DNA of 64,000 nt, taken from positions 1,266,001-1,330,000 of the forward strand of contig NC_010556.1 in assembly GCF_000019905.1 (NCBI RefSeq). Reading direction: 5' to 3'. Numbering within the stretch: position 1 is the stretch's first letter; every line of letters starts with the position of its first letter. A program made the position numbers and the translations under genes. The notes under the pieces are model-generated. The model was given only the letters and a program-made list of their open reading frames with translations. It was not told where the DNA came from and did no database searches. The stretch is from Exiguobacterium artemiae 255-15. GTDB taxonomy: Bacteria > Bacillota > Bacilli > Exiguobacteriales > Exiguobacteriaceae. Of the stretch, positions 42,016 to 61,966 are shown piece after piece.

Positions 42016-42185
42016 GGTTCACCTCCAGATGGATAGACATAGATGCTGTTCGGGCATCATTTTGGTTAGAAAAAGAATACCACAGAAACAGGAAGCTTGA
42101 ACCACCCAAATTATTGGTAAAATGGTAGACTAAAGGAAGATGAGGCAAGACGGCTCATACATAGAGAGACAAAAGGATGGATATT

Positions 42186-46724: not shown

Positions 46725-47626
46725 GTGATTGCGTTGCTGAAGGCGTATAAGTTTCGACTCTATCCGACGAAACCCCAACAAGAATATTTTGTGAAGACGT
46801 TCGGCGGTGTCCGTTTCGTCTACAATAAGATGGATCCGATTGTATGAAGATTCGAAGCTCAATCCTGACGCGAAGCAGAAGCTCTCGACACCAGCAAAGT
46901 ACAAGCCCGAATTCCCTTTCCTAAAAGAAGTCGACAGTCTTTCTCTTGCGAACGCTCAGATGGACTTAAACAAGGCGTATACCAACTTTTTTCGGGATCA
47001 GTCTGTCGGGTTTCCGAAATTCAAATCGAAGCACAACGACCGGGCCTCTTACACAACCAACAATCTAAAGGGGAGCATCCGCATCGAAGATGGTAAGGTG
47101 AAACTTCCTAAAATCGGTTTTGTGAAGTTGAAGCAACATCGTCCGTTTGATGGTGTGATCAAGTCCGCGACGGTCTCGATGACGAAGACGCGGAAATTTT
47201 TCATCTCCATCCTTGTCAATCAAGCCGAAGCGCAATGGGTCCCAGCCCAAAATAAAGTAGGAATCGACCTTGGTTTGGAGCACTTCGCCATCATGACAAA
47301 TGATGAGCGTGTTTCTGAGAAAGTTGACAATCCTCGTTTTCTTCGAAAGTCCGAAGAGAAGATAAAGAAGGCGCAACGCGCCTTGTCCCGCAAGAAGATC
47401 GGGAGTAAGAACCGAGAGAAGGTGAGAATCATCCTCGCCAAGAAGCATGAAAAGATTGCAAATCAACGTCAAGATTTTCTTCGTAAGCTGTCGAAACGGA
47501 TGGTTGACGATAACCAAGCCTCGTCGTCGAGACACTTAAATCGAAGAATATGATGAAGAACCATAAGATCGCCAAATCGATTGGAGATGTCAGTTGGTAT
47601 GAATTCGTCTGGCAGTTAGAATACAA
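46725..47626 (+). pseudogene. IS200/IS605-family TnpB remnant
   Basis: An RNA-guided TnpB nuclease of the IS605 type, broken. The N-terminus LLKAYKFRLYPTKPQQEYF runs to NKM at 46832, where about 11 bases seem missing; the frame resumes as IRLYEDSKLNPDAKQKL and stays open through the RuvC region VGIDLGLEHFAIM (first catalytic Asp). A second one-base loss near 47524 shifts DNQA-LVVETLKSKNMMKNHK. The gene then stops at WYEFVWQLEYK, where unrelated HisRS sequence begins. The zinc finger and last RuvC motifs are absent, so no active nuclease is made. Confidence 0.85.
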
Positions 47627-48202: not shown

Positions 48203-48886
48203 ATGGCAGAAATCATGATTATGGAAGAAAAGATTATCGAAAAGGATGCGATGAACTTAGGATACCCGTTTGAAGTGGGTGGAGAGTTGACGACAGCTTA
48301 TCTCATTGATGTAAGCCGTATTGAAAAAGACGGAGCAGATGAAAACAAAGAGTTTTTAATCGACTTCTTAATTCATCAACAGGTGTTTCCACTCTATGTC
48401 AGTTTCGTGGATGAGTATGGATTACATGATGAACATGACGCGTTTTTCAAACAACATAAGCTTTCATATGTCGTATTGGATTTAGATACACAGTTTCGAA
48501 GTGGAGAGGTGAAAGTCCGTTATAAGGAATACCATCCGTGTTATACGATTACCGTTCAAAACGCGGAAGAACTGCGTCTTGTCCTGAACAAAACCTACTG
48601 GCTGGCATCGGAAAATCTGTTATATACCATCTCGTACTCAGACAACCTGTCATTTAAATTGGGGGAGACGAACTGGTGGCGGTTGAAACTGATTCGCCCG
48701 ATTGGTGTTCTGACCATGCATCCGAACATGACCTGTTTTAAGATTGCCCATGATGGCGACGGTTTTTACCTGCTGTCAAACGATGAAAGCTATATACCAA
48801 TCGAACACCTGGTGACCCGGTTTCCGAAAGGGACCGTCATTTCGCAAATCAATGACGACTGGTTACTGGATGACGAAACCGATTGA
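48203..48886 (+). CDS. Hypothetical protein, three-member local family, member 1
   Basis: A 227-residue acidic cytoplasmic protein. It shares a plan with the proteins at 54577 and 61349: an N-terminal strand-helix unit, a motif with FPLYVSF (about 73-79), a block LRLVLNKTYWLASENLLYTI (about 130-150), a Trp-rich stretch NWWRLKLIRP, and a final FPKGTVISQINDD. The three are clearly paralogues but diverged. I do not know the family. Size, acidity and neighbourhood suggest an immunity protein. TGGGGTGAGGAG lies before the ATG. Confidence 0.68.
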   Translation: MAEIMIMEEKIIEKDAMNLGYPFEVGGELTTAYLIDVSRIEKDGADENKEFLIDFLIHQQVFPLYVSFVDEYGLHDEHDAFFKQHKLSYVVLDLDTQFRSGEVKVRYKEYHPCYTITVQNAEELRLVLNKTYWLASENLLYTISYSDNLSFKLGETNWWRLKLIRPIGVLTMHPNMTCFKIAHDGDGFYLLSNDESYIPIEHLVTRFPKGTVISQINDDWLLDDETD

Positions 48887-52625: not shown

Positions 52626-53195
52626 ATGAATTACATTGAGCATTTGGAAAAGCACTGTGGTGAGATTAAAGGAAGTTTAGAACTAGAAGATATGATGGAA
52701 GAAAATATTCAATTCCTGAAGTTCGAGAACGCACCAATTAATGCTACCTATACGGCGACATCGCTCGGGTTGATCTGGCATTCGCTTCAGTTCGAAGACG
52801 GACGGATAGCCCACCAGGAAGTGATGATGTCGGTCAAGCAGCCGGAAGCGAAGGAAGATGTCATCGAATTGCTATGGCGTCTGACGACGCATGCTTTGGA
52901 AACCGGACAGGCTTTTGAATTGGGCGAATTCTACAGTATGCCTGAGACGGTGTTCGGACAATATGGATTTGCAGGAGTCTACGTGACGGCACCGATTTAT
53001 TTTGATGAGAGCTTTTTCATCCATCATGGGGACGACGATTTTGATGAGCCGGAACACGTTTTGCCGGTTTGGTTTGTTCCGATTTTTGAATCGGAGGCGG
53101 ATTATCTTGAGCAACACGGTGCGGAAGATTTCGACGAAATTATTGATGCAACAGAGGATGAACTGCTTGACTTAACACGTCAGCCATTGATTTGA
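52626..53195 (+). CDS. SUFU (suppressor of fused) domain protein
   Basis: A 189-residue protein with the bacterial SUFU-like fold, another superfamily used as toxin immunity. Features: ATSLGLIWHSLQ near residue 45, ELLWRLTTHALETGQAFELG, then LPVWFVPIFESEADYLEQHG (about 140-160) and the C-terminal acidic helix. A homologous C-terminal scrap lies at 63660-63764. GGGAGG precedes the ATG by 5 bases. Confidence 0.82.
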   Translation: MNYIEHLEKHCGEIKGSLELEDMMEENIQFLKFENAPINATYTATSLGLIWHSLQFEDGRIAHQEVMMSVKQPEAKEDVIELLWRLTTHALETGQAFELGEFYSMPETVFGQYGFAGVYVTAPIYFDESFFIHHGDDDFDEPEHVLPVWFVPIFESEADYLEQHGAEDFDEIIDATEDELLDLTRQPLI

Positions 53196-53254
53196 GGATC
53201 ATATTCATAGAACGAAAAGCAATCATACGTTGCTGTAGGGAGGAAGAAAGCAAC

Positions 53255-53836
53255 ATGTTCGTCGATCACTACAAACAGGTTCATCATCTAGAAGTCAATA
53301 TACCGAAGGATGAGCGTTTTCAAAAGTATGAACATCTCAATATTTATTTTGAGTGGGGATTCGCGATCAACCAATCAACCGAAGAAGTTGCCAGCGAGGA
53401 TGCGATGTGGTTACTTGGACAAACGAATGCATTCCCGATCTGCATGGTCTTTGATGTATTTGATTTTTCGATAAATGAAACAATTGAGGTTCTCGAATCC
53501 TTCGACATACCGTATCAGACGTCAAGAAATAACGGAACAGAGCTCGTTGATGGAGGAGAAGCTTCGTATGACATCAGCATACGGCTCATCGTTAATCAGG
53601 AAAAAACGTTGCGAGAAATGATTCCATTCCTGCACGCATGCGGATGTCACGGTCAGAAAAATTATCTCTATTCCGTGATCACGTACGGAACAGATGTATT
53701 ATCAGCCACAGAAGACTTTCCGGGAATCGATGTCTCATACGCCGTCGTCTCGGTCGGACCGGATGGAGAAGGTGTAGATGTCATCGGACCGAGGGAACGG
53801 ATCATTCCGCTGTATCGGAAAGTACGAAATAGATAG
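53255..53836 (+). CDS. Hypothetical immunity-type protein
   Basis: A 193-residue acidic protein without recognised family: HLNIYFEWGFAINQSTEEVA, then FPICMVFDVFDFSINETIEV, then ISIRLIVNQEKTLREMIPFL. The FPI--VF position and a later ligand-like YLYSVITYG resemble the layout of the three-member family (48203 etc.), perhaps the same fold. GGGAGG lies 11 bases before the ATG at 53255. Confidence 0.6.
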   Translation: MFVDHYKQVHHLEVNIPKDERFQKYEHLNIYFEWGFAINQSTEEVASEDAMWLLGQTNAFPICMVFDVFDFSINETIEVLESFDIPYQTSRNNGTELVDGGEASYDISIRLIVNQEKTLREMIPFLHACGCHGQKNYLYSVITYGTDVLSATEDFPGIDVSYAVVSVGPDGEGVDVIGPRERIIPLYRKVRNR

Positions 53837-54540: not shown

Positions 54541-54576
54541 AATTGAGAAGTGACGAATCTAAAGGGAGTAAAAGGC

Positions 54577-55233
54577 ATGAATGAGCTGACAATCTTCGAA
54601 ATCTCTTTTCAGACAAAGAGTATCCAACGGAAACTTCAGGCGTATGAGATCAACGTGCTTGGTCAAATGCAAATCGTATATGAAGTCATGTGTTATGACC
54701 ATGCAGTAGGCGGCTACATGAGTGAACTGACAGAAGAAGTGTTATATGACGCCCTAGTGCGCTATGATCGTTTTCCCTTATACATCACGACGAATTTTGA
54801 TGAGATTCGAGAGGATGAGTTGCACATTCTGGAGCGTTTAAAAGCGCGACCATTAAACTGTCATAAACATCCACGATATGAAGGCGATCAGCGTCGCACG
54901 GGTTTTTATTGTTGTATCGAAGTGTTGAATGCGAATGATCTACATTTCGTGTTAAGCGAGACATTTTTTCGAGCCGCTTGGAGTGAAACGTTCATCATCA
55001 CGTTCACACGACCCGCGTATCAATTAAAAACCTCAGGAAAATGGATATTCAAAGAAGCGAAATTTACGCATGTGCTCGATGCACATGATGGGTTGCCGTT
55101 CATTCTTCCTTCTCATGACGCGCTTGGTTTCATGTGGTTCGCAAATGGAGATGCCTTCAAGACGGTAGATCAGCTAAAAACGATATTACCGGATAGTTAT
55201 GAGATGGACCACATCATTGATACAGAAACGTAA
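54577..55233 (+). CDS. Hypothetical protein, three-member local family, member 2
   Basis: A 218-residue paralogue of the proteins at 48203 and 61349. Shared blocks: RYDRFPLYITTNFDEI (about 67-82), LHFVLSETFFRAAWSETFII (about 125-144), KWIFKEAKFTHVLD, and the final hydrophobic-acidic segment FKTVDQLKTILPDSYEMDHI. AAAGGGAG lies 8 bases before the ATG at 54577. Likely cytoplasmic immunity protein, by context only. Confidence 0.68.
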   Translation: MNELTIFEISFQTKSIQRKLQAYEINVLGQMQIVYEVMCYDHAVGGYMSELTEEVLYDALVRYDRFPLYITTNFDEIREDELHILERLKARPLNCHKHPRYEGDQRRTGFYCCIEVLNANDLHFVLSETFFRAAWSETFIITFTRPAYQLKTSGKWIFKEAKFTHVLDAHDGLPFILPSHDALGFMWFANGDAFKTVDQLKTILPDSYEMDHIIDTET

Positions 55234-55271: not shown

Positions 55272-56051
55272 ATGGAACACCAGATCGGATTACCAGGCAT
55301 TACAGAAGAACGGTTGCAGGAAGTCGAGACAGAACTCGGATTTTCGCTGCCTTCCGAGCTGCGGACGTACTTTAAAAAGGAAAATAAGTTTGAAGCCGGT
55401 GAGTGGCAATTCCATCCGATCAAGGACGAACAGTATATCAAGCGGACGTGGGAAGACGTCGTCCATGTCAACTCGACGGATGCAGAAGACTATCCGGACG
55501 GGTTTTTCCGGATTGCCGCGGACGGTTCCGGGGATGAACTCGGCTATCTCTTGCCGGACACAGAAACCATCGTCCTGTGGGATCACGAAGAACAGGAGTT
55601 GTTCCCGGTCGCCCCGACGCTCGTAGTCTTTTTGGAACAAGAGCAACAGCTTTTAGAGAGTGCCATGCAGGCGGAAGACTTTCTTCAGACGGTAATTGAG
55701 ACAGGAACTGTTTACGGTTTATCGAAATTGAAGCAGTCGGGCTAGGCCTATTGTCCATCGAATCAAGAGGAAACGGATGTGCCGCTGTTTTTCTCGACGG
55801 AAGAAGGCGCACGTGCCTGTCAGAGGAACGGATGGGAGAATTATCATCTGATTCGACTCGATCTCGAGGTCTTTACAGACGGCTGGCTGCCGAACATGAT
55901 TCAAGACGGTTTGTATTGCGGACTGAACTGGGATGCCAGTTTACAGGGACTGGAGCTGAACCCGGAGAACGTTCTCGAGGAACTCGAAGGGGAACGACAG
56001 AGTAAGCACCACTTTTCCGGCCGGACGAGCGGAAAAGTGGTTTTTTTATGA
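55272..56051 (+). pseudogene. SMI1/KNR4-DUF2750 fusion split by an in-frame TAG
   Basis: Residues 1-125 are a SUKH domain (GITEERLQEVETELGFSLPS; IAADGSGDELGYLL). A DUF2750 domain follows (AEDFLQTVIETGTVYGLSKL ... PLFFSTEEGARACQRNGWEN ... ENVLEELEGE). A TAG at 55743-55745 replaces the Trp of the DUF2750 motif G-W-A-Y-C; the frame continues unbroken. The distal end is also odd: the frame has no stop before the terminator and reads through its hairpin to TGA 56049-56051, while a TAA two bases out of frame sits at 56002. As it stands only the SUKH domain plus 30 residues is made. AAGGAG lies 8 bases before the ATG. Confidence 0.8.
56009..56047 (+). terminator. Terminator inside the read-through 3' end of the DUF2750 frame
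   Basis: CCACTTTTCCG and CGGAAAAGTGG arms, followed by TTTTTTT. Confidence 0.9.
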
Positions 56052-56208: not shown

Positions 56209-56232
56209 AAAGCAAGAAAAGAGGAAATGAAC

Positions 56233-56619
56233 GTGTGGAAAAAAATTAGAATCATCGCGAGTCTACTTGTCATACTGCTGGCGGGATATTTGGCCTGGCA
56301 AATCTATATCTCGCTCTTCGCCGTAGATATCAAATACGTACCGCAAGGCGATTTATACAAGACGGTCACTTCTCCGGACGAGCGGTATACGTTACGGTTT
56401 TATCGTTCGAGCGGAGGGGCGACGACGGGATTTGCGATGCTCGGAATCATGGAAGATCAAAAAACTAAAGAACAGCGGCGCATCTACTGGGAATATCCGT
56501 GTAGAGAGGTAAGTGTGAAATGGCGACGGGACGTTGTCATTATTAATGACACCCGCTTAAACATTTGGACCGAGGTGTATGATTTCAGGTTGGATCAACC
56601 GATTTATCCAGCAAAATAG
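56233..56619 (+). CDS. DUF5412-like membrane-anchored protein
   Basis: A 128-residue protein with one N-terminal TM helix (IIASLLVILLAGYLAWQIYI) and a beta-rich outside domain: SPDERYTLRFYRSSGGATTG, RRIYWEYPCREVSVKW, VVIINDTRLNI, matching the DUF5412 pattern of Bacillota proteins. GTG start, 8 bases after GAGG; the ATG two codons earlier abuts the site. Function unknown. Confidence 0.68.
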   Translation: MWKKIRIIASLLVILLAGYLAWQIYISLFAVDIKYVPQGDLYKTVTSPDERYTLRFYRSSGGATTGFAMLGIMEDQKTKEQRRIYWEYPCREVSVKWRRDVVIINDTRLNIWTEVYDFRLDQPIYPAK

Positions 56620-58730: not shown

Positions 58731-59557
58731 TTAGATAGAAAAATCACAAAGATAATTCACGAACGCTGCGATTGATGAATGGGGTTTTGGGTTTGCAACG
58801 TACTAAGGAATGAGGTAAGCCAAGTTTTAGGAGGAGCAAAAGTGGAATTTCAGAGTGGTGAATGGATTGATATCTACCGGGAACTGTTACCGCATGACGA
58901 TTGGCAAGAGCTCGTCCGAATTCAAGTGACTCAGGATAACTATCCTTTTGAAGTCAAATTGTTGGAACGTCCGGTGAAACAAAACCGCAATACCTACGAT
59001 TTATCAGATTGGACAGTCTTGTCGCATATCATTATGACAGAAACGTCGCAACTGAAGACATTTCTAAATCAACTCGAAATCGAACAGATAGGGATGTCAG
59101 CCGAGTCGAAGACGATTCTCAGCATTCGGAAACACGGGCAGGAAATCGTTTGCGTTACTAACGATAGTGTCTCGATGTATGGTGTCGTCTATGAGGAACT
59201 AAGCGAGTCGGGTACGGAGTACGAAAACTTTTTTGATGCTGTCTTACCGTATGCGACGTTCCCGGTTGAGGTCGTCTTTTGCGGCCGTGGCGTTTTAAAT
59301 GATGAGGACTCGATACATGCGATGACATTGACCGATACGAATTGGCAAGCGGTCTTCGAAGATCGTCTGTTGCATTTGCTGAACCGAAAAGAAATCACTT
59401 CTGGATTCCTGCCAACGAATTACTCAAAGCCCTCTCGACGAACGCTCGAGAACTTCATGACAGAGTTCATGTTGTGCATGCCGTATAACTTCATTGTGAC
59501 ACGTGATGCAAATGGACGGTTTGGTATGCTCGATCATTTTTGTACCAAGACGGTTTG

Positions 59558-60496
59558 TCAAATTAAGTGCAACACTTCTTGCGTGAAGACCTCGTATGCA
59601 GTTTTCCAGTTAAGACATTTTCGTGGTCTCCCATTAATCCAGGCGAGCGCTTGAGCGATTTCAGAACGACTGACCTTTCCGAAATCTGTCCCCTTCGGGA
59701 AAAATTCACGGAGAAGACCATTGGCGTTCTCGTTACTACCACGCTGCCAAGAAGAATACGGATCTGCAAAATACATGGGTAAGCCTAACGTGTCACGAAT
59801 TCGTTCATGACAGCTAAACTCTTTTCCACGATCTGTCGTCGCAGTTTGGAACGTTCCCAACGGGAAGGAAAGATGTAATGCTTGAATCGCAGACTCCATC
59901 GATTGAGCGGACCGATTTTCCATCGGTACAGCGAGATAAAAACGACTCTTTCGCTCGACGAACGTTGCGACACAGGCTTTTGACGTTCCTCTACCCGATA
60001 CAACAGTATCAAGCTCCCAATGTCCAAACGTTTGACGCCCTTTGACGTCGGACGGACGTTTACTGATTGGCAGTCCGACGTTGAAGCGTCCGCGCGTCTC
60101 ACGTGGTTTCTGACGCTTTCCCTTTTGCCGAAGAAGTCCAGAATCGGCCTCGACGAGGCCACTATAAATCCAACGATAAATTGTCTTGAACGAGAGTCCT
60201 TCTTCTTGGAATAATCGTCCGGCAATTTGTTCAGGGGACCACGTCTCCCGTAATTTTTCGAGGATGCAGATTCCTTTTTCGAGCGTAAACTTCGTACGTG
60301 CACCGCACTTCTTCTTTCGCTCCACATAACGCTGGTCAGCATGAGAAGAATCGTAATGAGGATTTCGTTTCAATTCTCGTGAAATCGTATAAGGTTGACG
60401 CCCCAGGCGTCCCGCAATCTTTCGGACAGAGAAACCTAGCTCGAGATACGTCTCTATTTTGACTCTTTCTGATATGGTAAGATGAATATAGCTCAT
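59558..60496 (-). CDS. IS30-family transposase
   Basis: A 312-residue DDE transposase. The N-terminal helix-turn-helix is LTISERVKIETYLELGFSVR with RKIAGRLGRQPYTISRELKR; the catalytic Asp, Asp and Glu are in GHWELDTVV, TTDRGKEF and GSNENANGLLREFF. Full length and intact. GGAGG lies 7 bases before the ATG. The reading frame leaves the element at its end: the last Ile codon and the TGA stop come from target DNA, so the exact C-terminus depends on the insertion site. Confidence 0.95.
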   Translation of the reverse strand: MSYIHLTISERVKIETYLELGFSVRKIAGRLGRQPYTISRELKRNPHYDSSHADQRYVERKKKCGARTKFTLEKGICILEKLRETWSPEQIAGRLFQEEGLSFKTIYRWIYSGLVEADSGLLRQKGKRQKPRETRGRFNVGLPISKRPSDVKGRQTFGHWELDTVVSGRGTSKACVATFVERKSRFYLAVPMENRSAQSMESAIQALHLSFPLGTFQTATTDRGKEFSCHERIRDTLGLPMYFADPYSSWQRGSNENANGLLREFFPKGTDFGKVSRSEIAQALAWINGRPRKCLNWKTAYEVFTQEVLHLI

Positions 60497-61348: not shown

Positions 61349-61966
61349 ATGCACATCTATATCGAAGAAAAGCTGGATCACGTGAAAACGATCAAAGAGT
61401 ACTATGTAGTGATGAAAGGACAAGAACGACTGAAAACTATTTTTTCGTTCGAGTATTATAACGAGGATTCCAATGAAGATGAAATCATTTCGGATGAGGA
61501 AGTTTTAACGCAATTATTTACGCGTTTGAATCGTTTTCCCGTCTATCTATCCTTTGGGTTACATGAACTGACTGATTCAGGAATAGAAGATGTGATATCT
61601 ACGGTTAAGCAAAGAAAGTTACTTTATACGCAGACTTCGGTTAATAAACGTGAGACTTATATGATCATTGAAGTAAATCAACCAGAAGACTTGCTTCAAG
61701 TGCTAGAGAAGTCACTTTCATTGGCTAGTTACAATGGCTACTATTTGATTTCTTTGACGAATCTATTGAAATTTGAAACGCGGCGTACTAGACGGTGGTT
61801 CGTCAAAAAAGAAAGACTCGTACCAGTGGTCGATATGACAGAACCGACGACGTTTTTGAAAATCGGATTTGATTTGGAGAATGTCCTGATCTTCTCAAAC
61901 GAAGCATGTTTCGATGCATTGGAAAAAATCGAAGCATTCTTTCCTGAGGATGAAATCGAACAGTAG
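61349..61966 (+). CDS. Hypothetical protein, three-member local family, member 3
   Basis: A 205-residue paralogue of the proteins at 48203 and 54577. Shared blocks: LNRFPVYLSFGLHEL (about 65-79), LLQVLEKSLSLASYNGYYLI (about 116-135), RWFVKKERLVPVVDMTE, and the final FEALEKIEAFFPED-like helix. AGAGAAG precedes the ATG. AT-richer than the other two members. Confidence 0.68.
   Translation: MHIYIEEKLDHVKTIKEYYVVMKGQERLKTIFSFEYYNEDSNEDEIISDEEVLTQLFTRLNRFPVYLSFGLHELTDSGIEDVISTVKQRKLLYTQTSVNKRETYMIIEVNQPEDLLQVLEKSLSLASYNGYYLISLTNLLKFETRRTRRWFVKKERLVPVVDMTEPTTFLKIGFDLENVLIFSNEACFDALEKIEAFFPEDEIEQ

Follow-up and report, generated by a model that had tools for sequence, protein, structure and literature searches.

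The SUKH-DUF2750 frame and its surroundings

The window considered here is a 64,000-nucleotide stretch of the Exiguobacterium artemiae 255-15 genome (contig NC_010556.1, positions 1,266,001–1,330,000), in which a single frame on the + strand (55272–55991) encodes a SUKH domain followed by a DUF2750 (Imm16) domain and is broken by an in-frame TAG at 55743–55745 (+; codon 158). The open reading frame up to the TAG (55272–55745, +) specifies 157 amino acids, including the whole of SUKH (residues 9–123) and the first part of DUF2750. A profile search places the SUKH domain in PF09346 over its entire length (profile positions 1–125, E 9.1e-16, 59 bits against a curated cut-off of 25.4), and the ATG at 55272 is preceded by a ribosome-binding duplex of −11.8 kcal/mol (the anti-Shine-Dalgarno letters behind this and the other duplex energy are those we presume to apply). 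Read across the stop, DUF2750 (PF11042) occupies 55674–55985 (+; contig positions 1321674–1321985) with a match to profile positions 2–102 at 76.5 bits, and because this match spans the TAG, the stop lies within DUF2750 and not between the two domains. The frame is otherwise open through the remainder of DUF2750, and this downstream piece matches the profile at positions 27–102 only (E 8.6e-17). The window copy has no uninterrupted frame that matches the whole of PF11042, and owing to the TAG it does not join two immunity domains in one polypeptide. It is also the only DUF2750 match in this genome (n=1). The initial annotation described SUKH and DUF2750 as lying in one frame split by a TAG at a tryptophan codon, and was right as to the frame, the stop and the codon (TGG in 24 of the 26 aligned copies, replaced by TAG in the window copy and by TGA in G755). 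Its two-domain immunity protein is found intact in relatives, whereas the broken window copy would yield one only with readthrough of the TAG.

The 3′ end of the frame has changed as well. At the place of the original stop (55992–55994, +) the window reads GAA where 24 of the 25 other aligned copies have TAA or TGA, and the frame runs on for 19 codons beyond this position to a TGA at 56049–56051 (+), crossing, as was noted initially, a terminator-like hairpin with a following T run (56008–56041, +; −19.2 kcal/mol, z −3.98). The hairpin is also present 3′ of the intact genes in two of the five closest relatives (G013 and G018). The natural stop, said at first to have been lost with a TAA left out of phase at 56002, is indeed missing, but that TAA is at 56003–56005 (56002–56004 reads GTA) and was not the natural stop, since in four of the five closest relatives it is likewise present and out of phase while their own stop is upstream. 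A frameshift as the reason for the loss is ruled out by the same arrangement and by the alignment of the relatives' stop with the GAA codon; judged from these alignments, the stop is absent owing to a point difference (GAA versus TAA or TGA in close relatives) and not to a phase shift. Overall, the terminal stop is kept in 24 of 26 aligned copies, the other exception being G569 (L073), in which the fusion is intact, the stop reads TTA and the frame goes 13 codons further, a second, independent terminal-stop loss. Further downstream, a 12-base direct repeat (window positions 56021 and 56374) flanks the hairpin and the start of a DUF5412 gene (56227–56619). In G004 and G014 (L074 and L071) the sequence jumps from the first to the second copy of this repeat, as a deletion of some 353 bases between the copies would produce, taking with it the hairpin and the beginning of that gene.

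The gene lies among other immunity genes, with SUKH at 42177, 43149, 49583 and 55272 and SUFU at 52626, all on the + strand of the window. A polyimmunity locus would have closely spaced, co-directional immunity genes uninterrupted by toxin genes; interspersed here are frames for which Pfam gives no match and a pair on the minus strand (50688 and 51988). Four frames (48203–48886, 53192–53836, 54550–55233 and 61349–61966) are of similar size, look alike by eye and have no Pfam match over the cut-off; they possibly represent an undescribed immunity family of the locus. There are also two frames that resemble transposon genes, one presumably encoding part of a TnpB-type transposon protein (46807–47553, +) and the other presumably an IS30-type transposase (59558–60496, −). 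The latter abuts a frame at 58779–59654, and in three of seven loci (L004, L005 and L006) relatives cease to resemble the window near 59545–59548, so that to judge by position this element may have interrupted the gene of that frame.

Intact and interrupted copies among relatives

The SUKH part and the DUF2750 part are each matched in 17 of the 19 genomes of the genus, and the DUF2750 family is present in 27 of the 38 genomes of the order. An alignment was made of 26 of the 27 first copies in the order, excluding a frameshifted copy (G549) and a second copy in G017. The fusion is free of internal stops in 22 of the 26 aligned copies and in 16 of the 17 copies in the genus, where the window copy is the only broken one, and in these 22 both immunity domains are joined in one polypeptide (profiles were run on three intact relatives, and both domains were found in each). 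Intact fusions can thus be found in other genomes, as the initial annotation had proposed to establish, and the contrary prospect it raised, that SUKH and DUF2750 are always separate genes, is not borne out. Internal stops are present in the remaining four: TAG at codon 158 in the window, TGA at the same codon in G755, TAG earlier in DUF2750 in G772, and TGA within SUKH in G538. Three-frame translation shows a frameshift within DUF2750 in G549, and with this copy five of the 27 first copies in the order are broken. The second copy in G017 (L093) is a degraded fusion that retains the first part of SUKH and the greater part of DUF2750, in different frames.

In a class-level sample, which includes the genomes of the order, DUF2750 was found in 80 of 398 genomes, and 17 loci outside the family were inspected, drawn from among the best DUF2750 matches. 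In 16 of these 17 DUF2750 is standalone, the frame being too short, by length, to accommodate SUKH as well; in one genome (G728) a separate SUKH gene lies upstream of it. The exception, G537 (L055) from another family of Bacilli, has DUF2750 continuing a SUKH frame that contains a single TAG in its SUKH part and is otherwise open. Other copies of the fusion in the genus of G537, sought via DUF2750, were not found, with matches in one of five genomes, that of G537 itself. On these counts SUKH and DUF2750 are as a rule fused in this order and seldom so in the sample from outside, and because the G537 fusion is interrupted too, broken fusions occur in three genera. As for mobile DNA, none of 135 pattern matches on viral contigs encodes a relative of the fusion, and the six plasmid records that match each do so over 40–53% of the query, none of them over 80%.

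Probable decay, and the alternatives of readthrough and separate initiation

Very probably the window gene is an allele, now decayed, of a polyimmunity gene of Exiguobacterium. We infer that the TAG was the first change, or an early one, and that losing the original stop was then without cost; the product would be 157 residues long, with SUKH complete and DUF2750 reduced to a useless stub. Neighboring immunity genes are broken in relatives as well: going by the match tables, four (G004, G013, G007 and G015) of the 26 genomes that match the SUFU-like gene have it interrupted, split or in fragments, and a 298-aa SUKH gene is broken in three of eight genomes with a strong match (G013, G018 and the distant G001).

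The low dN/dS is the chief finding that lends decay no support; the stop shared by two genera at one tryptophan codon, and the single TAG in the otherwise open frame of G537, count against it as well. For intact pairs whose dS lies at 0.05–1.5, the median dN/dS of SUKH is 0.144 (83 pairs) and that of DUF2750 is 0.100 (72 pairs), and the window DUF2750 compared with five relatives gives 0.086–0.142, within the range of the other pairs (0.073–0.221); the part after the TAG gives 0.066–0.127. There is no measurable relaxation of selection on the window DUF2750, this copy evolving no faster than its relatives, and therefore either the loss is recent or some constraint still acts on the remnant. 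Private changes in the DUF2750 half number three amino-acid changes and the stop versus two silent changes, too few for a test; one of the three replaces leucine by proline at codon 172, a change that fits decay.

A remnant that is otherwise open and has low dN/dS is also what leaky or programmed readthrough at the tryptophan-codon stop would leave, a little full-length fusion being made beside abundant SUKH-only protein, and the recurrence of a stop at one codon in two genera (TAG in the window copy, TGA in G755) points the same way. However, there are several reasons to regard readthrough as most improbable. First, in a simulation that distributes four nonsense changes over the opportunities found in close intact relatives, two or more of them fall in one column in 5.4, 7.0, 10.6 and 15.6% of trials at transition biases of 1, 2, 4 and 8, respectively. 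Second, the absence of TAA among the four stops has a probability of 0.20, 0.26, 0.34 and 0.42 across the same biases (1–8). Both tests cover the four nonsense copies in the alignment, to which G537 does not belong, and neither result requires a special mechanism. Third, the two remaining stops (G772 and G538) are at other places. Finally, a readthrough product would overrun the lost original stop and would bear the proline of codon 172 in place of the leucine shared by the other 25 copies. An elaboration in which the tryptophan codon is a recurrent on/off site, with a leaky stop (TAG in one genus and TGA in another) setting the ratio of SUKH-only to SUKH-DUF2750 protein and holding the second domain in low-level reserve, strikes us as equally improbable.

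The gene might also have been split in two, with SUKH ending at the TAG and DUF2750 translated alone from a GTG at 55779–55781 (+), a start that the initial annotation proposed to check and that has a purine-rich stretch upstream (duplex −6.5 kcal/mol). Neither codon conservation nor ribosome-binding comparison supports it: of the 26 copies, only 12 have GTG here and 14 have a different valine codon, and among 331 internal start-like codons 28.7% are preceded by an equal or stronger ribosome-binding match; the duplex at the true start is −11.8 kcal/mol. The product would moreover be without roughly the first third of DUF2750 (profile positions before about 38 of 102), and we think separate translation very unlikely. 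A working split or readthrough gene would be a surprise, if true, and the evidence favors neither. As for sequencing error, the TAG and the GAA are known from one finished assembly of the strain, but two separate errors would be required and other genomes have stops too, leaving this explanation only a slight chance.

A two-domain immunity gene that is kept across the order, yet broken independently in several lineages, is as expected for a defense against toxins that are met only sometimes, and comparing the broken copy with its intact relatives is a natural way to ask what the DUF2750 half contributes.

Predicted toxin pairing and related immunity proteins

SUKH and Imm16 are predicted immunity domains, Imm16 being paired with Ntox8 and also listed with Tox-LD-peptidase (PMC3482391), and in the intact protein each domain would bind and block a toxin delivered by competitors. 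There is no match to Ntox8 in the genome containing the window, and for this reason the DUF2750 half is read as orphan immunity, whose loss would be tolerated while its toxin is not met; in the order, weak Ntox8 matches occur in three of 38 genomes, each with three internal stops and one above the cut-off. Outside, in G498, DUF2750 is encoded directly 3′ of an RHS protein that ends in Ntox8 (E 2.2e-31), in agreement with the published pairing. Toxin neutralization by SUKH and DUF2750 is a prediction, made from family assignment and from this one toxin-adjacent homologue. From sequence, the window appears to contain an orphan two-domain immunity gene that has recently lost its DUF2750 half and from which the SUKH protein is probably still made; SUKH-based immunity may remain, and immunity based on DUF2750 (against Ntox8-type toxins by the published pairing) would be lost.

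Searches of PADLOC and NCBIfam and a sequence search of the PDB gave no match. Structure prediction for the intact protein of G013 gave five models with mean pLDDT of 39.7–84.9, the best of which (84.9, pTM 0.72) has SUKH followed by DUF2750, a long helix (117–144) forming both the end of the first domain and the start of the second. Foldseek comparison of this model with the PDB finds Knr4 core structures and other SMI1/KNR4 proteins as the best matches, with E from 1.4e-4. The SMI1/KNR4 fold is thus predicted for an intact relative rather than for the window product, as the 157-aa protein modelled alone has a mean pLDDT of 44.5 and is unusable.

Proteins in which SUKH is joined to unrelated immunity domains have been described as polyimmunity proteins, with two specificities as the general prediction (Zhang et al. 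2012, PMC3482391); the text of that paper that we consulted, its figure of combinations aside, does not name SUKH with Imm16. The relatives are like those proteins in that one polypeptide combines SUKH with an immunity domain of unrelated structure, and the window copy is unlike them in being interrupted. Standalone Imm16/DUF2750 genes, one of them (G498) directly behind the RHS-Ntox8 protein, belong to the same Pfam family, whereas in the window DUF2750 is fused behind SUKH and broken. The dual-SUKH proteins of gut Bacteroidales are also two-domain orphan immunity proteins, but contain two SUKH domains instead of SUKH and DUF2750 and were tested experimentally, one SUKH domain sufficing for protection by a dual-SUKH protein (PMC12247911). 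Finally, esaG4 of the Staphylococcus aureus esaG array is likewise an immunity gene with a premature stop within a repertoire, though it belongs to a tandem array of one family and was broken by a nucleotide insertion (PMC9484751).
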